A stretch of DNA of 64,000 nucleotides from Ceratodon purpureus (taxonomy: Eukaryota > Streptophyta > Bryopsida > Pseudoditrichales > Ditrichaceae): assembly GCA_014871385.1 (NCBI GenBank), contig CM026422.1:26564151-26628150 (forward strand), in the 5' to 3' direction. Shown one piece after another: positions 1-11,156 of this stretch (position 1 is its first letter; each line of letters starts with the position of its first letter). The position numbers were made by a program, and so were the translations under genes. The notes below the pieces were generated by a model that saw nothing but the letters and a program-made list of their open reading frames with translations, searched no databases and had not been told where the DNA came from.

Positions 1-1803
1 ATTGACCTTCAAGGTCTGTAACCAATTCCCCCTCCTTATTCCATATGAGGCCTTTTGGGTGATTACCAAGTTGGAACTTCTTATTCTTCGCATCCCAGTA
101 TCCATTCAAAGTCTGATAGAAGAAATTTCGTTTCCCTTGGTCCTCCTTCTTTGATCCAATTATCTTCTTTGCCACCCTCACAATCTCCTTCTCGTTATTC
201 TTCCACCCCAACTCGTCACTTACATTGCTCTTGAAGACCGAATGAGTCTGGGCCCGCCAACTCCAAATCAAATCTTCCCCCCACATGTTGCGGTACTCTT
301 CACCTGGTGTGTTTCGGGATTTCTCTCATGGCTTGGTGGCATGTATGGAGTGAGTCCAAAAACCTCGTACAAGTTACATGGAACGGGGATTTGCACATCG
401 GGCAAAATCTCCTTTCCAAAAAAATGTTAATTAAACACATTGGATGGAACATGTGGGTATATGATCCAACTACCCATCCACCCTCATGACCAAATGTGTT
501 TAGACACACCATACATTGTTTTGAACCATCCATCACCCACGATTGAGGATTTGGCCAAAGCTTTCTGCTTTCAACTCCTTCCTTCATTTGAAGATCATGG
601 CACGAAGTTGCGTTCTCTACATCGAAATCCAACTGGGCCCAATCTATGAGTTTAGGATTCGATTCTTGCATTGGCATGTCATCTGGATACATATCATCTG
701 CGTTAATCCATGAAGTGAGGCCAAAATCCCTTCGTCTGTTGTGTTGCAAGTACGACATCAATTGTATTGTTGATGTAAGATTCATCCACCAACATTGGAT
801 CCTGAACTACAGGTATATCATTGGCTTGAGAAGACTGAGGTCTTTCTCGTTCTTGCAATTGATTGCGCAAATCTGATATTACTACATCTTTTGCTGCTGA
901 TTCCAATCGTAGTTTTCGGATGGTCTCTTGTAACTCTGCAATGAAGCCATCCTTTTCTATAACCTGTAATTGCAACTCCCCGACCTCCTCGATTTGGATA
1001 GACTGGTCATTTCTAACTACAACCGGCATGCCAAGAACCATCGTAGGTTCAGTTCCGACCACCTCCAAATTAGCAGCCGTATTCGGATCGTTTTCCACGA
1101 AGATGATGTTCGCATCGTCGTGAGGTTCTATGACGTCCGCTGGATGGTTCATTGGAGGCTCTACAGCCATATTTGCTGGTGCTGCAATTCTACGTGGCAC
1201 TCTTTCTCCACGACGACCATCGGAATCAGAATCTGGTTCTCACTCTGCTGTAGCACGCTCCGGCATTTGTGTTTTTACCTTCATTCTTTTCCCCAGGCCA
1301 CCATCTGGGTATTTCCTTTGTTTGGGAATGTCACGCTCTGTCGGCGCCCTAACACTCGTCATGGATTTGATGGTGGACCAATCCACCACTTTGTAAAGCA
1401 CGACCTCAGCATACACCATTCTGCAAATGAACAATGGTACTTCATTGCGTTCGACACAAGATTGCTTGTATAGATGCTGGTAAACTTGTATAGAACGTTC
1501 AACAAACTCCGCATTCAAGCAATAATAAAGGTTAGCCTTGTCTGAGATCCTGTGATTTCTGTGCCGATCGTGTGGAAATATTTTTGTGATGTGGCACCAC
1601 TCAATGAATTCCTCGCATGTGGAATATTTCCACGGTTCCGGCTCATCTTGCCAACCTCTAAATGCCAACTTCGTCGGGTTGTTCAACACATGAAGCCGCT
1701 TCTTCATCTTCTTACCACCACGCTTCCGTTCACGATTTTTGATTTTTTTCTTTTCCGCCTTGGTGAGTGGCGTTTCCGCCGCCGGAGGTGGGTTTCCCTC
1801 CAT
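1..1803 (-). pseudogene. Degenerate gene: basic N-terminus, coiled coil, RING-like finger
   Basis: Read leftward from an ATG at 1803. The first ~188 residues begin with a lysine/arginine-rich stretch resembling a nuclear signal. An in-frame TGA lies near 1237, but the same frame continues (acidic linker, then a predicted coiled coil rich in E, L and Q near 960-870) to about 703. A frame change between 785 and 703 leads to a 161-residue stretch with CMVC, HMFHPMC and CPMC, a pattern close to a RING-H2 finger; the third cysteine is not obvious. Another one-base shift near 300 lets the frame continue off the left edge. RING fingers usually act in ubiquitin ligases; that role here is inference. 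The protein family is not recognised. One stop and at least two shifts suggest decay or sequence errors in a homopolymer-rich region. Confidence 0.5.
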
Positions 1804-1918
1804 CGTGGTGTAGTGGTAAAGTTCTGTGTGTTAAAAAACACACCAACTCCTCAAAACTTCCCCCAATTGATTTTACAAATTTCGTACGTGGTTGATTATG
1901 GTATTCTAACTATACTTT

Positions 1919-2083
1919 GTGGCCCACCCAAGTATTCAGCAATAAGCCACCGTGAGGTAGTTTAGGGCCCAAATTCCCGGATGAGCGTACAAAATACGGT
2001 TGAAAAAGGTACGTGGCGTTGTCAAAATACTGTAGACCCCACCCAAGTACTCAGCAATAAGCCACCGCGAGGTAGTTCAAGGC
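1919..2083. repeat. Duplicated ~51-bp leader motif upstream of gene A
   Basis: Two copies about 112 bp apart (1919-1969 and 2031-2083) share CAGCAATAAGCCACCG and GAGGTAGTT. They lie in the 5' leader of the minus-strand gene, between its TATA box and ATG. A plausible 3' splice site (reverse complement of 1825-1840, a T-rich tract then ACACAG) sits about 20 bp before the ATG. Function unknown. Confidence 0.6.
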
Positions 2084-2110
2084 CTGAGTGCCAAGGTGGA
2101 GCTTAAAAAC

Positions 2111-2266
2111 TGGGGGGGGGGGGGGGAGGGTGCCCCCTTCACTTATATAGTCGGGGGGGGGGGGGGGCGCGAGCGGGTTCAGGGGGGGGCGCGAGCGGGT
2201 TTGGGGGGGCTCGAGCGGGTATCAAGGGGGCGCGAGCGGGTTCAAGGGTGGGCGCGAGAGGGTCCG
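2111..2266 (-). promoter_or_regulatory. Promoter of gene A: G/C array plus TATA box
   Basis: G runs of about 16 bases at 2111-2126 and 2152-2167 flank a TATA box on the minus strand (GACTATATAAGT, TATA core at 2143-2150). Upstream, to the right, are about five tandem units of ~21 bp with the core GGGGGCGCGAGCGGGTT to 2266. The array directly abuts the TATA box. The kinase gene at 3560 carries the same GACTATATAAG or a close variant, which supports a common origin. Confidence 0.65.
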
Positions 2267-2659
2267 GACCTTAAAAAAATCTTTTGTAATCTTAGGAGTA
2301 GCATTGAAAAGGTTTGAGGACAATAATACAAAGAAATACAATGGATTTTTTCACCATTTGTCTCCAAAAATAAAAAATAAAAAAAATTACAAAGAAATAT
2401 TTAAATAAGGAATATTGATTTGAATAATTTACGGATGAGATATCAAATTATATAAAAACAATCATGACTATAATTAGACACTCGAGATAAAAAGGAATGA
2501 ATAACATGGGATGAAAGAAGTTATCAAGATGAATAAATCTCATGATTAGAAACTGAGTTGTGCCATAACGGAATAATGATCTAATGCACAATGAATAATA
2601 TAATGTTGCTTAAAAAAAATAGTACATTAATATTAGAAAAGATGTGGAAAACTAAAAAA
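2267..2659. other. AT-rich spacer, no gene seen
   Basis: Low-complexity AT-rich DNA between the divergent promoters of the minus-strand gene and the kinase gene. No convincing ORF, RNA gene or terminus was found. Confidence 0.6.
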
Positions 2660-3360
2660 GATAAAACATTGGAAGAGATAAAGGGAATAAAATAAAATCA
2701 ATAGCATGGAGTCGAAGACAGTTAGATTAGAGTTTAAAAAAACAATCTATATATTTCATTGTACATACGGATCCTACAATGCTCCAACATATAATTAAAA
2801 ATATAAAGAACCGTTAGGAAGGGGCTTGATGCAATTGGTTTGGGAGATAAACGGAATAAAATTAAATCAATAGCATGGAGTGGAAGAGATAAACGGAATA
2901 AAATAAAATCAATAGCATGGAGTTGAAGAAAGTTGGATTAGAGCTAAAAAAAACAATCTATATATTTCATTGTACATACAGATCCTACAATGCTCCAACA
3001 TATAATTAAAAATATAAAGAACCGTTAGGAAGGGGCTTGATGCAATTGGTTTGGGAGATAAACGGAATAAAATTAAATCAATAGCATGGAGTGGAAGAGA
3101 TAAACGGAATAAAATTAAATCAATAGCATGGTGTCGAAGAAAGTTGGATTAGAGTTAAAAAAAACAATCTATATATTTCATTGTACATACGGATCCTACA
3201 ATGCTCTAACATATAATTAAAAATATAAAGAACCGTTAGGAAGGGGCTTGATGCAATTGGTTTGGGAGATAAACGGAATAAAATTAAATCAATAGCATGG
3301 AGTGGTTTGGGAGATAAACGGAATAAAATTAAATCAATAGCATGGAGTGGAAGAGAGCTA
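2660..3360. repeat. 211-bp tandem repeat, three copies, with ~40-bp sub-repeats
   Basis: The marker AACAATCTATATATTTCATT recurs at 2741, 2952 and 3163, exactly 211 bp apart. The last copy ends in extra copies of a ~40-bp unit with ATAGCATGGAGTGG. AT-rich and non-coding. It lies between two divergently transcribed genes of the composite element. Confidence 0.85.
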
Positions 3361-3520
3361 AAGGAGAGGTTGTGCATGTATAAAATCTCCAGAGTTTCTA
3401 TTTTTTAATTTGTTTTTTTAAGTATTTATTTTATTTTTTTCTCTTAAAAAGTAGTGCAGAGATTTGACTATTTTCAGAAGAAAAAAAGAAAATAAAAAAA
3501 GAAGTTGTAAAACAAAAGGT

Positions 3521-3736
3521 GGGGGGGGGGGGGGGGCGCGAGCGGGCCCGTGAGGGGACTATATAAGGTGGAGAAAAGCTCTCGGCCCCCCCACTCCTTT
3601 CCACAGCGGCTCCTTGTCCTGACGTGTGAAAACACGCCTTGCTTGGAACTGCTTATGTGGGAAGTCTTCATTTGGGGGGGGGGGGGGGGGGGGGGGGGGG
3701 AGTTGTTGATTTTTTTTTTCAGGGATTTACTTTGCG
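3521..3736 (+). promoter_or_regulatory. Promoter and leader of kinase-like gene
   Basis: A G16 run plus CGCGAGCGGG (3521-3546) precedes the TATA box TATATAAG at 3560-3567. A second G run of 27 bases lies at 3674-3700. A T-rich tract and CAG at 3720-3722 form a good 3' splice site 14 bases before the ATG at 3737. Order and spacing match the promoters of the two neighbouring genes. A 5' UTR intron is inferred; its donor is not assigned. Confidence 0.6.
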
Positions 3737-5315
3737 ATGTCTTCTAGACAAGGCTCCGGCAAGCAGCCTATCTATGAGGACTTGGATGCTCCAGATGCGG
3801 TGGACCCTATGAGTTGTGTAAGACCTCATGGTTCTACTGGTTCTATTCCTTCATCTAGCTCGAAGGGTAAAAAGAAGAAGAGTATAGCGGCGCACGAAAA
3901 GGATGACGGTTATCCACCATTGGAATATACGCATTTCATCAGGAAGGTGACCGTCGAGTACTACAGGGCCCGTACCATACGAATGTTAAAGGCAATGTAC
4001 CTTGATCAAGGAGAGAATGGTATCTACAACCTCCAACGTGATTTGGAAAGGGAATTTTGGAGCGCATTGGAAGGATCAGAGTTCTATATGGATTGCAAGA
4101 CGAAGTATTTTCACAGCCCTAAGTGGTTGACACAACAAGTGAGTAGTGCTACGACAAATGTCATTCATGTGTTTGAATCACATGTGAAGAAACCACAAGG
4201 CGAAGAATGGAGCAACCAAGACAAAGTGTTTATTTAGAAACTGACAGCGGTTCAGGAGGCATGTCAGAGATGTTCCAAGGGGAAAACAAAGATTATGCCT
4301 TGGAATGAGCAAGCGTTGAACTCAACATTGGAAGCACACATGTATGGTTCATTGATATGGATTCCGGTTACGGCCAAAGTTGTGCCATTATTTGGCTTCA
4401 ATGCCGAGGGGGGGTATGGCAAAGTGCGAAAAGTGCAAATAGCCAATATGAAGCGTATTCCAATTCACGTCGAATTTGCGGGAAAACTTTCCAAGGCTAA
4501 AACTGAAGTGGAGCAGCGAGAGCAATGGGCGATTGAAGCCACGGTTTGCCCCGTAGAGCATCCGGGTGTGATAAAATTTTGGGCCATTCACTCCAAGACC
4601 ATGGAAGCTTATACCTTGTGGTGGAATGGAGATTGCCTCCGCAACTTCCTCAAATTAAATGAGAAGGGACCGAGGCAACAAATTACAAAGAAATTTTGAA
4701 GTCGAGGGAAATGCCCATGAAGAGTGCCAAAGAATTGTTGCCTATCGAAAGAACCGAGGAATGTTGGCGTGGAGTCTCATCTACGTTATGGACATAGTCC
4801 ATAAGGCTGAAATCCTCCACAACGACTTAACGCAATCCAATATTCTACTCCACTTTCCACCTCATGACAAGGATAAAGTATATATTGGTGTGTGCGATTG
4901 GGGTATGGCAAGCAGAGTCATTGAGAAGAAGGCCTCCCCTTATGGTGTGAAGAACCCCGATGATCTTGTACGAATAAAGGAGAGGAGGGTAGGAGTTGCA
5001 CCGGAGTTGTTCTTTTTATATGGCGACAAAGATGATGAAGAACGCAATTTGGAGCGCATGAAGAGGATGCATCCATGTACGACGCAATCTGATGCATTTT
5101 CGGTAGGCCATTTGGCAAAGAAGATATGGAGAGAAGAAGAATGCCCAGAACTCTTCAAGGATTCAATGTCAATGATTGCATTCTCATCAAAGTTGGATGG
5201 CTTAGTTAACGAAGATCCTGCAAAGAGGCTTTCACTTGCAAAAGTTGTGAATGATTTGATGAGCCCCCCTTACAACTTCCAAGCTCCCAATGGTTGTTTT
5301 AGATACACATTGTAG
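3737..5315 (+). pseudogene. Protein-kinase-like gene inside the hAT-like unit
   Basis: The frame starts at 3737 with a serine/lysine-rich tail. It is broken by an in-frame TAG at 4235-4237 and by a one-base shift between 4659 and 4699, then runs to 5315 (about 525 residues in all). Kinase landmarks appear in order: glycine-rich loop GGYGKVRKV (~4408), an alphaC-like IEATV glutamate, catalytic loop HNDLTQSN (~4821; HRD reads HND but Asp and Asn are kept), metal-binding DWG instead of DFG (~4898), APE (~4998) and DAFSVG (~5092). I infer serine/threonine-type kinase ancestry. Retained catalytic Asp residues suggest it was active before the lesions. A kinase is not a usual hAT component. The kinase subfamily is not recognised. 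Confidence 0.7.
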
Positions 5316-5547
5316 TTCCATAGTGATTTACGTTTGGAACATTTTGATTGCCTATGTGGCCTTGTTTGCACATTTCTAATATTTTAATAAATCATTTTTT
5401 CGGCGTATACGTGCCTTGGTGGAACATGAAATGCTATTGTTGGTTTTGTAATGGAATTAAAAAACGTTTTTAAAAAAAAATTAAAAAACTGTATGGCCCA
5501 TTCACCGGGACTGCCCCTCGTACAAGGGTGCCTCCCCCCTTTACAGA
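5316..5547. other. 3' region of kinase gene
   Basis: Non-coding DNA after the kinase stop. AATAAA (5387) could serve as a polyadenylation signal. No other feature seen. Confidence 0.4.
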
Positions 5548-5677
5548 AGCTCGCGCCCCCCCCCCCCCCCCCCTTCCAGAAGCTCGCGCCCCCAACCTTC
5601 CAAAAGGTCGCGCCCCCCTCCTTGCAGTAGGTCGCGCCCCCCCTCTCAGAAGCTCGTCCCCCCCCCCCCCCCCCCCC
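5548..5677. repeat. G/C minisatellite array 3
   Basis: About five units of 23-27 bp with the core AGAAGCTCGCGCCCCC, including long C runs near 5556-5573 and 5658-5677. This is the reverse complement of the array at 2111-2266. It abuts the TATA box of the hAT transposase gene. The G-rich strand is a likely G-quadruplex former. Confidence 0.85.
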
Positions 5678-5888
5678 TCACGAGTATAAATGCAGGGTTG
5701 TTAGGCCAAGCCTAATTTCATTTGAAATCATGGCCTCCAGTCCCGGAACTCCTTGTGGGCTCTTTGCTTGAGACTATGTGCATCACATTGGCCTGTGGTT
5801 GATGTCCACACATACAATTTTTTTCTCACATGTGTCATACTAACACTTGCAGACAGGAGATCATTGTACTTTTTGAGAGACACGGAGA
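5678..5888 (+). promoter_or_regulatory. Promoter and leader of hAT transposase gene
   Basis: TATAAA at 5685-5690 lies directly after the C-rich array. A textbook branch point and 3' splice site (ATACTAACACTTGCAG, AG at 5851-5852) precede the ATG at 5889, so a 5' UTR intron is likely. CAGGGTTGTT at 5693 equals the first ten bases of the hAT terminal repeat but the match does not continue. Confidence 0.6.
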
Positions 5889-8800
5889 ATGGCAGGTCAA
5901 CAGCGTCAGTCGACGGCTGAGTGGGCTCCGTGGTGTATGTTCATTGATAAGGACCATGTTAAATGTGTGTGGTGCAATTTCACTTTTCGTTATAAACGAC
6001 AAAGAGCTATGAAGCACTATGGATGGGGTGAAGGTTCAAGCAAGAGTCATTGTACCAAGGCCCCTGCCGCCGTATTTAGGCGCTTTGCCAATTGTGGTAA
6101 TGTAATACCAAAAAGAATGACACATGCGGAGATCTACGGCACTGACGGTGGTGATGGCAAGGCACATTTGGCACCATGTTCTAGCCAGTCTATGCCTGCT
6201 GAGCAATCTACGGAAGTGCCTCAAAGAACGGAGGAGGTCCAAAAGGAGAGGATTTCTCAAGTTGAACCGTCTCAGTCAACTCCGCCTCTAAGCAGAGGCG
6301 ATTCATGTACACCAAGATCTATGCGGCAACAAAGTTTTACCGAGGCCTATCAGATTGGAAAGCGCAATGAATTGGATGAGAAATCGGCGTCCTTTTTTTA
6401 CGAAGCGAATGTGCCTTTCAATGTGGTTAGACATCAATCTTTCATCGCAGCTGTGGAGGCAACATCAAAAGCAGGTTTTGTCTACCGTCCACCAGCATAC
6501 AATGCAATGCAAACCAAGCACATCCAGCCAACAAAGCAGCTTCTCAAGATGAAAATAGAGTAGAAAACGAAGCAGTGTATTAGCTTGTACAGGGCAACTA
6601 TTTGCTCGGATGGATGGGACAACGTTGTTCGTCGGCCGTTGATGAATGTCATGCTTGTGTGTCCAGCAGGAGATATATTCCTGGGTTCCATTGATACAAC
6701 GGGGTACAAGAAATCAAAAGCATACATAGCTGGGAAATTGAAAGAGTACATCAAAGAAGTTGGACCGCAGAATGTGGTACAAATTTGCTCTGACAATGCT
6801 AGTGCGATGTTGGGAGCCATGGACCACGTGGTAGAAGCTTATCCATACATTTACAAGCAAGGTTGTGCAGCTCACATCATGGACCTCTTACTAGAAGATT
6901 GGGGGAAGGAAGCAACCTTCAAAGAGCTGATTGTCTTGGCAAAACGCATACCGACTTTTATACGTCGCCGCCATGTCACCATGGCTTTGTTTCGCCAATT
7001 CAGCCCAAAGTTGTCTTTGTTGTTACCAGCGGAGACAAGATTTGGATGCCGGTACTTGATGATTGTTCGATTGCTTGAACTGAGGGAGGCACTAATCCAG
7101 GTGGTAGCCAATCCAAAATGGGACGAATATGTGGGTACTTTATTCAATCGGTCAAACGGGTATCGTGCTCACGCCTTAGCATGTCAAGTACGGAGTACCA
7201 TTCTTGATGAGACATTTTGGTTACGTTGTGAGGATCTTGTGCATGTTATGAAGCCGGCTGTTGTGACCTTGAAGACCTTTGATGGACAAACACCGGCAAT
7301 GGGGAGGGCATGGTTGGCCATGAATAATTTGAAGAAGCCATTAGGAGAAAAATCAGGTCACAAAAAGGCCGTGTAAGCGGCACGTGAGAGAAAAAAACGG
7401 GCGCTGCCCGCGTACTTTTTGACATGGCATGTGAGGTGCCACCGTGGTGCCAGCAACCGCCACGGGGGCTCGAACCAATGACCTCCGAGCGAGGCGTGTG
7501 GAGGGCACATCTACAGTGTCGGGCTGACACAACCTGCCCACTTGGGACCAAAGCCTGAGCCGAGGCGTTCATGTCTCACCTAATATTCCGAGGACCTTTG
7601 TTGTGAGTGCGCCACGCAGTTCTGTGCGGGCAGCAACTCTGGCATCCGCTGCCAGCGGCAGAGGTGCCCAAAGTAGGGAGTTCACCTAGAAAGGGCAGGC
7701 TTACACGGCTTTATTTTGAGCTCATTTTTCTCCTAATGATGTGTTCCGTCTACGGGGTGACTCTTTTTTCCTAGACCCCGCTATAGCAGGGCGCTTTGAG
7801 AAACATTTTACGAAGAGATGGAAGATGATGTTGACAGATCTCCATTAGGCAGGCGCCATTTGAATCCCTACATTTTCCCGGAGAGCCACGAGCTATTGAC
7901 TAACAGTGCAGCGAAGCGTGCACTCCTGCAAGTCCTAATTCATTTGAGTGAGTCCCTTAAACTAGACCACGATATTGTGTTGTCTGAGCTAACACAGTTT
8001 GAGGAACGCACCGGTCCATTCAGCCCTTTGGAGGCCCCAAACATTCGACAGACTAAGATGCTACCTCATCAATGGTGGCAGCGGGTTGGGGGCGATGCGT
8101 TGCCCTTGATAGCAAAGCGCATCCTTTCGTTAACATGCTCGGCATCATCATGTGAGCGAAATTGGAGCATGTATTCCTTTGTTCACAGTAAGGTTCGCAA
8201 CCGATTGGCCGTGAAGAAGGCAGAGGACTTGGTGTACATTTACACAAACAGTAAGCTCCTTCGAGAACGACGTGGAGCGGATCCTGTTCTTTGGTACGAG
8301 AACCAACCGTTCTCCGAAGACTCGGATGAAGAAGTTCCAGCCATGTACGATGAAGACGTATGTGATGATGATGGAGATAAAGGATTCCACAACGGAGTTG
8401 AAGATAATGAAGGCGATGGTGACGACGGTGGAGTTCATTATACTCCTGCTACTATGGATGATGAGTATCAGGAGTTACCCGTGGACAATGCTGGTGGTGA
8501 CATGCCACGCACTGAACCCGTTAACCAGCCGAATGGAGTTTTTGACTGGGCAGGATTTGATGAAGAGGCAGCTACTTTGCCTCACCACGTTGTCAATGAA
8601 ATACAAACTAGAGGCAAGGTCGCATACGATTGGGCAGACGATGATATTGACGATGAATTTGAAGTCGAAATGACTCAGCATCAAAGCGACGATGGTGGCG
8701 ATAATGATGACATTCACCCCGTTTGTAGCGTTTCGAACAATGACAATGAAGGAGGGGGTAACAACATGGGAGAGCAAATTCCAATTCCAGAAGACGTTGA

Positions 8801-9563
8801 GGGAGGAGAAGAAGTCGAACAACTCCCAGGCACTCTGCCAGTAAATGTTGAGGAAACAATCAGGTCCGGAGGTTTGGATGAAAGCCCTCCAAGAAATGAA
8901 CAATCAGAGACAGTCAGAAATGGACAAGAAGATGAAATTCCTATTGGCCGATTGTTTCAAACACCCCTGCTCCAGAGTACACCTTCAATCGGAGCAATAC
9001 TTGCAGGGTTGGGTAGACCTCCCCCACCTCGTTCAAGCACTTCTATTGGGCATGGTTCATTAACTCCAACACCGAATACAAGCGTTCCACTCACTTCTTC
9101 TGGACGAGGTCTACCAGCTGGACCTTCTACGACGCGTCGTGGAGTGATACGGTCACGGAAAGGTCCAACAAACGTTCGCCCTTTTTTTTCAGGATATACT
9201 GTTGGGACTATCCCGTCTTTACCTGTGGCTGTGGGTAAACGTAGATTACCCGTAATGAATGTGGACGGAATCACCGATAAGACCAAAAGACGGAAGGTCA
9301 AAAGAATTGTGACCACGGTGGTGGATGGTACAATTGACCACGAATTGCGCAATATTCATTCCACGGTACATGAGTATGTGCCTAATCAGGGGGGAGATGG
9401 AGATGACGAGGGCTTGAAATCCTCAGAAGGATATGACTCATCGGAAGATAGCCGTGAAGAAGCACCTGATGATGAAGACATTGTTGCAAGAGTACCATTG
9501 GGTATGCCCGGTACTCGAAGGAATCCAGAGCGGCGCACCGCCAAAAAAAATAAAAAAAAGTAA
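5889..9563 (+). pseudogene. hAT transposase with BED finger, DUF659, dimerisation domain and long acidic tail
   Basis: The start at 5889 gives a BED-type zinc finger (CVWC, then H and HC within ~45 residues), followed by the DUF659-like core (ICSDGW near 6603, ICSDNASAM near 6785, then AETRFG). The C-terminal hAT dimerisation region lies at about 8090-8270 (SSCERNWS, KVRNRLAVKKAEDLVYI). A ~430-residue acidic extension follows, with an NLS-like KTKRRKVKR near 9285 and a basic end. Lesions: in-frame TAG at 6561-6563, a 400-bp inserted element at 7339-7738, and a TAG plus one-base shift near 7845 where the conserved LH-AG-LNPY segment is disrupted. Family membership is firm. This copy cannot make full-length protein. 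The tail is unusual for hAT transposases. Confidence 0.85.
7339..7738. mobile_element. 400-bp inverted-repeat element inside transposase gene
   Basis: Ends CATTAGGAGAAAAAT and its reverse complement bound imperfect ~39-bp terminal inverted repeats reaching GCCGTGTAAG. The transposase frame breaks at the left end and resumes at the right end, so this is an insertion. On the minus strand GGTTCGAGCCC (7466-7475) matches a tRNA-type B box, and TGGTCCCAAGTGG upstream is a weak A-box candidate. A tRNA-derived or MITE origin is inferred. The target duplication is not clear (TA possible). Confidence 0.65.
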
Positions 9564-9847
9564 TACATCTTTCAGCATATTACATATAGAAGTTATATAG
9601 AGAAAGTATAATATATATGACTCCAAAATAATTTTAAAAAATCACAAAAAAACATAATATATATATATATATATCTAAATTTTATACGTAGATACTTATA
9701 TGTTAACCCTTAGTCAATGTCCATAAAACATTAGCTAAGGCTATTGAATGTAATTTTGTTTCGACATGAATTGAAACTTCTCTCATTTATGTCACTATGA
9801 AAACTTCAGTCATGTCTTAATTTCCTTCAATGCTTGATTTTTGTTCC
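9564..9847. other. AT-rich 3' flank of hAT gene
   Basis: Non-coding AT-rich DNA with a short TA repeat near 9655-9675. Nothing else identified. Confidence 0.5.
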
Positions 9848-10083
9848 CCGTTCGCGCCCCCCCCTTCGCAGGCGCTCGCGCCCCCACCCTAAACCCCTTG
9901 CTCGCGCCCCCCCCGCCATCGCAGGCGCTTGCGCCCGCCCCCTCGCTCGCGCCCCCCCCCTTCGCAGGCGCCTGCGCCCCCTCGCTCGCGCCCCCCTTCC
10001 CAAGACGCTTGCGCCCCCCCTCTCAGCCGCTCGCGCCCCCCTCTCAGCCACTCGCGCCCCCCTCCCTCAAGGCGTTGGCGCCC
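9848..10083. repeat. G/C minisatellite array 4 (subterminal)
   Basis: About eleven degenerate copies of GCTCGCGCCCCCC spaced by GCAGG- or CAGCC-type linkers. The core matches the three promoter arrays. It sits about 200 bp inside the right end of the hAT-like unit and could be a subterminal transposase-binding region or an array seeding site; both are inference. Confidence 0.8.
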
Positions 10084-10232
10084 TTCCTCTCAGCCACGTC
10101 ATCCCCCGAGTCAACTGTATATGTGGAATATTTGGTGACATGTCAGACGCGTGGCATCCTAGGTGGCCAAGGTAACTCCCATTTCACCATTTGGATGGTC
10201 AACCGTAAGTCCTGGTCAAACGGACCTCCCCT

Positions 10233-10299
10233 GACCCCTAACGGACGGACGAGCGGACCGGACGGACGGACCGGTCCTTATGTCCCATGAACAACCCTG
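10233..10299. repeat. Right terminal repeat of the hAT-like unit
   Basis: Read inward from 10299 on the minus strand, the sequence starts CAGGGTTGTTCATGGGACAT. Over about 66 bp it matches the left end of the element at 20784-21041 with only a few differences, including repeated GTCCGTCCG motifs. Bases 10300-10307 (GCCCCACC) would be the right copy of an 8-bp target duplication; the left copy is outside the window. Confidence 0.75.
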
Positions 10300-11156
10300 G
10301 CCCCACCGCCCAGACCAAATTTTGGACGGCGGACCCGTCCCTTTCTCCCCAGCCTGGGTTACGGTTTCTTGGATGTGACGGGCTCGGGTTCCTGAATGTC
10401 ATCCCCCTTTCATCACACTTGTGCTGCATTTGGAATTCCGCTCGTGGGTTTGGAAAACATGTAGTGCGCTGCGTCTTTAACTGTGCTACTACACCTCGGG
10501 CGGTGGCAAAGTTGATGGTGTGAAGCTAAGTGTCCTTCACATACTAATGTTTGGGGGGAGTCAATGGCGCAAGTTGTAGAGGTCTGAAGTTCTTCATAGT
10601 GACGGACTGGTATAAGAGAAACGGGGCGAGGGTTTAGCCATCGAAGGTGGGCGTCGAAACATTTGAGGGAGCGAATACTTCACAGAAACAAAGCGATGCT
10701 GGAGTAGGCCAGACTGGGCTACCTCATCAAATCCGGGTGCCTAATCAAAGGCTTGGAATTTCCCAACTTCAAAAATTTTAGGGTTTTCAGATTCGTTTTC
10801 TTGCTCATACAAAAATGCTCACATGTTGTTATCGGTTTGGGTTGAAGGTTTAAAGTTGTTTACTTCTCACATGCTTGCAGGTACTTTAGTAGCAAGTGTT
10901 GGGTCACTACTGGAATGTTTTAATTATCTTATGCTCTTCATTGCTCGAATCGATTAGAGTCGTATTTTATAGCCGTCTCTTGTTATTTGTTGGATTTGTT
11001 GGGTTTGGGGTGCTATGAGTGCGTGGTGGTGAGCTGAGGCTACTGCGACGGAAGTCAAGGAGGAAGTTTGAGGGTTTAGGGTTCTACTGGGCGAGCCTCA
11101 AGGCTGGTTGGATAAACAAAACAACACCAAAGACTGCCAAAATCTGGAAGAGGTCG
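10300..11156. other. Unassigned spacer
   Basis: No supported gene. Short ORFs lack recognisable domains or codon structure. It lies between the hAT terminus and the candidate left end of the decayed CACTA element. Confidence 0.4.

Follow-up and report, generated by a model that had tools for sequence, protein, structure and literature searches.

A three-gene hAT transposon family with kinase and RING-H2 cargo in the moss Ceratodon purpureus

Introduction

The window analysed here comprises the final 64 kb of contig C2 in the 362-Mb genome of Ceratodon purpureus (CM026422.1, positions 26,564,151 to 26,628,150). Its left part holds three neighbouring genes, for a RING-H2/coiled-coil protein, a protein kinase and a hAT transposase, and raises the question whether these genes travel as one transposon and what the first two would do there. 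Elements of the hAT superfamily are usually taken as small one-gene cut-and-paste transposons. Positions 1-10299 of the window are the right-hand 91% of an 11,280-bp hAT element. On the evidence of its anatomy and co-mobility, the three genes form one element that inserts as a unit, a conclusion which we regard as very nearly certain. The family was examined in this one genome.

Element structure and insertion

The left end of the window copy lies at C2:26563170, 981 bp left of the window, and the right end at 10299. The right-hand 10,299 bp (1..10299, plus strand) belong to an element with the 8-bp duplication GCCCCACC on both sides; the right copy stands at 10300..10307, and the same 8 bp stand before CAGGGTTGTC at the left end. 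The right terminal inverted repeat (10290..10299, minus strand) is CAGGGTTGTT read inwards. Transposons of the hAT superfamily typically end in short inverted repeats of the CAGGG type, to which the termini CAGGGTTGTC and CAGGGTTGTT conform. The right 67 bp are repeated in the genome in at least 40 copies at 99-100% identity, among 447 candidates. The left 90 bp have 487 candidates, the best 40 of which were scored at 96-100%.

The sample consisted of 21 right-end-anchored loci, namely the window copy and 20 loci for which the 10 kb inside the right end were fetched. All three genes are present in 11 of them (window copy, L009, L010, L011, L012, L014, L016, L020, L023, L024 and L026); six of these end inside the RING gene at the 10-kb limit, and their full length there was taken from a genome search. 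L027 is without the RING gene, L025 is without the kinase, and the other eight fetched loci hold a partial transposase or little beyond the end. Each of the 11 three-gene copies is bounded by CAGGGTTGT termini and 8-bp target duplications (ten exact, one 7/8). The left ends of the window copy, L009, L010, L012 and L016 were located by searching for the 8 bp of the duplication followed by CAGG; the duplication is exact in all five, and the elements are 10,638-11,393 bp long. The six further left ends were located by the terminus CAGGGTTGTC alone, with no use of the duplication, and gave five exact duplications, one of 7/8 and lengths of 11,303-12,527 bp. Full copies of the family measure about 10.6-12.5 kb. 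Shorter elements with exact duplications were read at L022 (3,570 bp), L025 (8,823 bp), L027 (7,176 bp) and L028 (3,450 bp). The duplication is exact in 14 of the 15 elements with both ends read and 7/8 in one, nine of the 15 left ends having been found via the duplication itself and six without it; this count leaves out L013, L015, L017, L018, L019 and L021, where no left end was read (the 8-mer of L021, which comes back with no terminus beside it, was disregarded).

Direct evidence that the whole three-gene block inserted is provided by an empty site. The copy on contig C10 is inserted in the tail of a related kinase, inside another repeat. Its flanks, joined with one duplication, align gaplessly with L022 across all 192 columns (97.9%). 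The same joined flanks match L028 at 95.8% with no gap and L019 at 96.4% with one gap. The test covers one site.

The preliminary description of this DNA had proposed a large cargo-bearing hAT family with a kinase and a RING-like gene, and had suggested a genome search with the right end. That search yielded copies with both ends, 8-bp duplications and all three genes between them, the transposase and kinase on the plus strand and the RING-H2/coiled-coil gene on the minus strand. The proposal would have been undone by cargo genes that never stood with the transposase inside shared termini; in 11 of 11 three-gene copies they do. The left boundary had been placed wrongly, at 5693, and the true one is outside the window. 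The CAGGGTTGTT at 5693..5702 (plus strand) is equal to the transposon tip and is not a terminus: it is a private change of the window copy, where 10 of the 11 three-gene copies read CCACCAACTT, and within 10 kb inside the right end CAGGGTTGTT was found in none of the 20 fetched loci. When the 40 listed left and 40 listed right ends were paired within 30 kb, 13 left ends found a partner, at 2.9-28.5 kb; the longest of these pairings are probably nested or unrelated and were not used.

Genes and predicted products

None of the three genes is intact in the window copy. Uninterrupted frames were taken from other copies, each read from an individual copy and not from a consensus.

The hAT transposase gene (5889..9563, plus strand) has two stops, alignment gaps and a 400-bp insert in the window copy; an uninterrupted frame of 1,094 amino acids is present in L027. 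Pieces of the window copy match Pfam DUF659 (107 bits) and Dimer_Tnp_hAT (29.8 bits, cut-off 21.4), and Hermes is the closest solved structure by sequence (E 8.6e-4). Candidate D, D and E residues of the RNase-H core are kept in the rows covering them. A BED-like CxxC...H...C pattern is located near the N-terminus, and the C-terminal extension is long, acidic and Ser-rich. Judging by the intact frames, the element appears to be autonomous. The 400-bp insert (7339..7738) has 40-nt inverted ends, CATTAGG/CCTAATG, and no visible target duplication, and none of the 13 fetched copies spanning the site has it.

The protein kinase gene (3737..5315, plus strand) carries one stop and two alignment gaps in the window copy. 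Its uninterrupted frame of 526 amino acids was found in L009, L016, L020, L023, L026 and L027, and the L016 copy matches Pfam Pkinase above the cut-off (33.1 bits vs 31.7). The motifs GGYGKV, FAGK, HNDLTPSN and CDWG occur in most copies read, and Lys250, Asp364, Asn369 and Asp388 are kept in all six intact copies aligned. No Pfam family matches the N-terminal 200 residues at E up to 1. No kinase relatives were found in IMG/VR in one scan, which reached close relatives only. Older kinase relatives, with amino-acid identities of about 68-90%, likewise occur as repeats in the genome.

Open reading frame 1 (ORF1; 1..1803, minus strand) is the RING-H2/coiled-coil gene. Its uninterrupted frame encodes 793 amino acids in L016 and 792 in L010. 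In the window copy about 308 bp are missing near 755, two in-frame stops are present and the C-terminal end of the gene falls outside the window. The RING-H2 finger (390..518, minus strand) matches Pfam zf-RING_2 at 25.7 bits (E 1.4e-5), just below the curated cut-off of 27.3, and its best PDB match is RNF24 (E 6.3e-7). The eight zinc ligands, C2-C1H2-C1-C2, are complete in L009, L010, L012, L016 and L025. The set is broken in the window copy, where the third zinc-ligand Cys is replaced by Tyr; the other five copies read there have Cys. By its sequence the ORF1 product is a RING-H2 protein, ubiquitin-ligase-like. Between ORF1 and the kinase lies a tandem repeat of three copies (2670..3305; 214 nt, spacing 211), and similar tandem repeats were seen in several other copies.

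Abundance and linkage in the genome

A first look at the genome gave 1,680 candidates for the RING gene, 1,415 for the kinase and 1,546 for the transposase. These are unconfirmed matches including fragments, and are more numerous than the candidates for the two ends. Uninterrupted frames were found in 72 of 82 scored kinase matches, 37 of 42 transposase matches and 36 of 57 RING matches; only the best-scoring matches were scored, which biases these figures toward intact frames. Identity to the query is 98-100% in the 42 scored transposase matches, which shows that part of the family has moved recently.

Linkage was counted among the matches listed, and a case without a partner there is not thereby unlinked. 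At the best 42 transposase matches the RING gene is in place in 35, the kinase in 23, both in 19 and either in 39. A RING gene stands head-to-head with 65 of the 82 scored kinase matches. In shorter lists, a transposase or right end follows 32 of 82 kinases, and a kinase accompanies 14 of 40 right ends and 27 of 57 RING matches.

Promoters and motif arrays

The motif CTCGCGCCCCC is inversely oriented at the two ends of the element and also occurs upstream of all three genes. A search for GGGGGCGCGAG or its complement, with up to 1 mismatch, gave 18 matches in window positions 1-10299, and none in the other 53,701 bp of the window or in the left flanks of five copies (44.9 kb; 98.6 kb of outside DNA in total). 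The matches are arranged as an ORF1 promoter array of GGGGGCGCGAG (2153..2262, plus strand, five motifs), a kinase promoter motif (3521..3546, plus strand; one here, up to nine in both orientations in other copies), a transposase promoter array with the motif inverted (5534..5680, minus strand, four motifs) and a right subterminal array (9845..10083, minus strand, eight motifs). Five copies were fully read (window, L009, L010, L012 and L016). Their motif places are the left end (+), RING gene (+), kinase (+ or mixed), transposase (-) and right end (-), with 1-13 motifs per place. Three-gene copies hold 20-45 motifs in the stretch searched (11 copies), a count which omits the left end in six of the 11 (10-kb stretch); the RING-promoter count leaves out L012. 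The palindromic elements L022 and L028 have end clusters of 20 + 16 and 17 + 13 motifs, respectively, and keep little else of the family, and this retention of the arrays suggests a cis need and a common binding protein.

Putative TATA boxes are located before ORF1 (2142..2152, minus strand, GACTATATAAG in sense), the kinase (3558..3568, plus strand) and the transposase (5685..5692, plus strand). Among the 11 three-gene copies, GACTATATAAG or GACTATACAAG precedes the RING gene in 11, ACTATATAAGG precedes the kinase in 10 (not L012), and TATAAATG or TATAAGTG precedes the transposase in 11. A 3' splice-like signal, TACTAAC...TTGCAG, precedes the transposase in all 11 copies, and a T-run with CAG precedes the kinase in 10 (not L014). 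The AG of the RING gene is found in two of 11 only (window copy and L024; in L026 an AG stands two bases earlier), and a third splice site is therefore not supported. The G/C core is thus present in the places described for it, before each gene and next to the right terminus, with a fifth cluster to be added at the left end. The described order of array, TATA box and splice site holds for the arrays, the TATA boxes and the transposase and kinase splice-like signals, and fails at the RING-gene splice site.

Selection on the transposase and RING genes

Variants in 16, 12 and 12 copies, some partial, were split into private (one copy) and shared (at least two copies). Shared transposase variants comprise 54 synonymous, 54 nonsynonymous and 3 stop changes, with a ratio of nonsynonymous to synonymous rates (dN/dS) of about 0.39 (p 1.1e-6); shared RING-gene variants comprise 23, 29 and 0, with a dN/dS of 0.45 (p 0.002). 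Private variants look neutral (transposase 0.98, RING gene 0.93), and shared and private variants differ for both genes (Fisher, p 0.00015 and p 0.041, respectively). The transposase and the RING gene are under purifying selection. Unsplit dN/dS values are 0.67 for the transposase, 0.79 for the RING gene and 0.75 for the kinase, and between pairs of copies the ratio is 0.26-0.42 (transposase) and 0.52-0.88 (kinase).

Interpretation

The best explanation overall, which we consider probable, is a recently active three-gene hAT with motif-linked promoters and cargo acting in trans. The transposase would move the element by hAT cut-and-paste with 8-bp target duplications. One element-encoded DNA-binding protein, most likely the transposase via its BED-like zinc finger, would bind CTCGCGCCCCC both as subterminal repeat and as promoter site, so that gene expression would be tied to the element's own protein. 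That the motif is such a shared binding site for ends and promoters is slightly favoured, by analogy with known systems. A preference for CGG or CGC is frequent among BED proteins of hAT origin, and for four proteins encoded by hATs the motif corresponds to sequence in the subterminal regions of their own elements (PMC8097297). The BED domain of Hermes binds subterminal repeats (PMC10368747), and in VANDAL elements the noncoding DNA holds tandem motifs to which the element's VANC proteins bind (PMC5735166).

Most likely, the RING-H2 protein and the kinase are functional and act on the host in trans: the kinase would mark, and the RING protein ubiquitinate, a host factor that limits the element through silencing or repair. 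Alternatively, within the same explanation, both may tune the transposase. The view that the cargo promotes survival of the element against host control is tentative, and is put forward because of the analogy with VANC (PMC5735166) and with the TET-carrying hAT7 (PMC12730594). Its most specific form, in which kinase and RING ligase jointly remove a host silencing or repair factor while genes and ends are addressed through one self-recognised G/C motif, is unlikely as a whole.

Several points weigh against the favoured explanation. The RING-less L027 and the kinase-less L025 also carry exact duplications, and may have lost the gene before or after insertion. Taken domain by domain, the Hermes match is weak (0.22 in the better domain), and Pfam zf-BED gives no match at E up to 1 to the N-terminal piece of the window copy. 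Several copies have one motif only at a promoter. The AlphaFold models have a mean predicted local distance difference test score (pLDDT) of 35.4 for the RING protein and 29.7 for the kinase, too low to be of use. Shared kinase variants (22 synonymous, 50 nonsynonymous, 0 stop) give a dN/dS of about 0.76 (p 0.12), no different from that of private ones (0.73, p 0.07; Fisher p 0.63). The kinase thus shows no clear sign of constraint, although many copies retain its frame and catalytic residues; since selection on it is not significant, it could be relaxed or fast-evolving.

Among the alternatives, the one that survives best concerns the G/C arrays, which might be subterminal transposase sites expanded into promoters by chance, with no regulatory role. 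The wide variation in motif number per place, and the presence of but one motif at some promoters, would agree with such a history. In the five fully read copies, however, the motif stands at all three promoters without exception and its orientation is constant at both ends and at the RING and transposase promoters, and TATA boxes adjoin the motifs; we consider an absence of any role unlikely, while giving it more weight than the alternatives that follow.

A dose or timing switch, in which the kinase phosphorylates the transposase and the RING protein sets the transposase level, would replace counter-defence by self-regulation. The motif and TATA promoters common to all three genes, and the long acidic, Ser-rich tail of the transposase, would agree with such a switch, but host targets fit equally well, and we judge it a little less probable than arrays without a role.

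More doubtful still is the possibility that the cargo genes are passive passengers, pieces of host genes taken up by Pack-type capture and amplified without function. Gene capture by DNA transposons is common, the kinase shows no significant selection, and one cargo gene is missing from some copies whose duplications are exact. Passengers would hardly be expected to have full-length uninterrupted frames in many scored copies, their own TATA box and motif at each gene, or a RING gene under purifying selection; the same two cargo genes are present in 11 of 11 full-size copies, and the older kinase relatives are repetitive too. That the three genes are independent neighbouring or nested repeats was suggested only by the mistaken left terminus at 5693, is contradicted by the matched ends and 8-bp duplications round the block in 11 of 11 copies and by the uninterrupted empty site, and has practically no probability left.

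Relation to known systems

The three-gene family shares with the hAT superfamily (Ac/Tam3/Hermes) its 8-bp duplications, CAGGG termini, hAT C-terminal domain and subterminal repeats. Unlike usual hATs it carries two extra full-length genes, is 10.6-12.5 kb long and has the subterminal motif at every promoter. The TET/JBP-carrying hAT7 of rust fungi likewise combines a hAT with an added enzyme gene, discussed for epigenetic marks, but differs in its 7-bp duplications, its dioxygenase gene and its fungal hosts (PMC12730594). VANDAL elements of Arabidopsis resemble the family in having three genes (VANA, VANB and VANC) and tandem noncoding motif arrays (PMC5735166); their transposase is of the MuDR type (PMC12730594), in contrast to the hAT transposase here. 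Starships and other giant cargo elements are also eukaryotic transposons with cargo, but use a tyrosine recombinase and carry up to hundreds of accessory genes (PMC11623301, PMC12134995), whereas here the same two recur in 11 full copies.

No hAT with kinase or RING cargo was found in the literature searched, which comprised titles and the openings of abstracts (Repbase was outside its scope). Within that literature only, two full-length signalling-type cargo genes in a hAT, with promoters that share the terminal motif, are undescribed. The family is young, large and of high copy number. Many of its copies retain open frames for two signalling-type genes, one of which shows measurable constraint. 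Such a family lends itself to asking how a plant DNA transposon acts on host protein-control machinery, in a moss host that allows experimental testing, and raises the question whether motif arrays common to promoters and termini, as in VANDALs, arose again in hATs.

Other repeats in the genome

Sister hAT families with DUF659 were seen at L039:2579 (family C) and L038:5975 (family B), with many long open transposases (1,032 and 1,095 amino acids, respectively). The family C transposase has a weak zf-BED match, below the cut-off. In the one copy of family C read (L039), the transposase lies 920 bp after CAGGGTTGT, the presumed left end, and the interval holds nothing recognisable as cargo, only a low-complexity frame of 203 amino acids. 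In the one copy of family B (L038), no kinase or RING match was found in the 5.97 kb upstream, nor a left end there.

An N6_N4_Mtase-like piece (PF01555, E 8e-5, 23.1 bits vs a cut-off of 26.7) is located at L038:2846-3424 (C4:12775845-12776423) and has 2,759 candidate places in the genome. An N6/N4-methyltransferase was considered as family B cargo and rejected, as only two places (C4 and C142) are common to both match lists (by eye). The piece probably belongs to a separate repeat, as a gene of some other mobile element.

The elements at L022 (101-3670), L028 and L019 are palindromic hAT elements, non-autonomous and some 3.5 kb long; the main arms are 99-100% complementary in L022. In the arms are the final 75 codons of a related kinase (68-72% amino-acid identity). 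Elements with such kinase tails have 760 candidate places in the genome, of which the best 150 were scored, and the listed tails often form inverted pairs about 1 kb apart (by eye). Transcripts of the palindromes would form hairpins against kinase 3' ends. Such hairpins are reminiscent of Mu killer.

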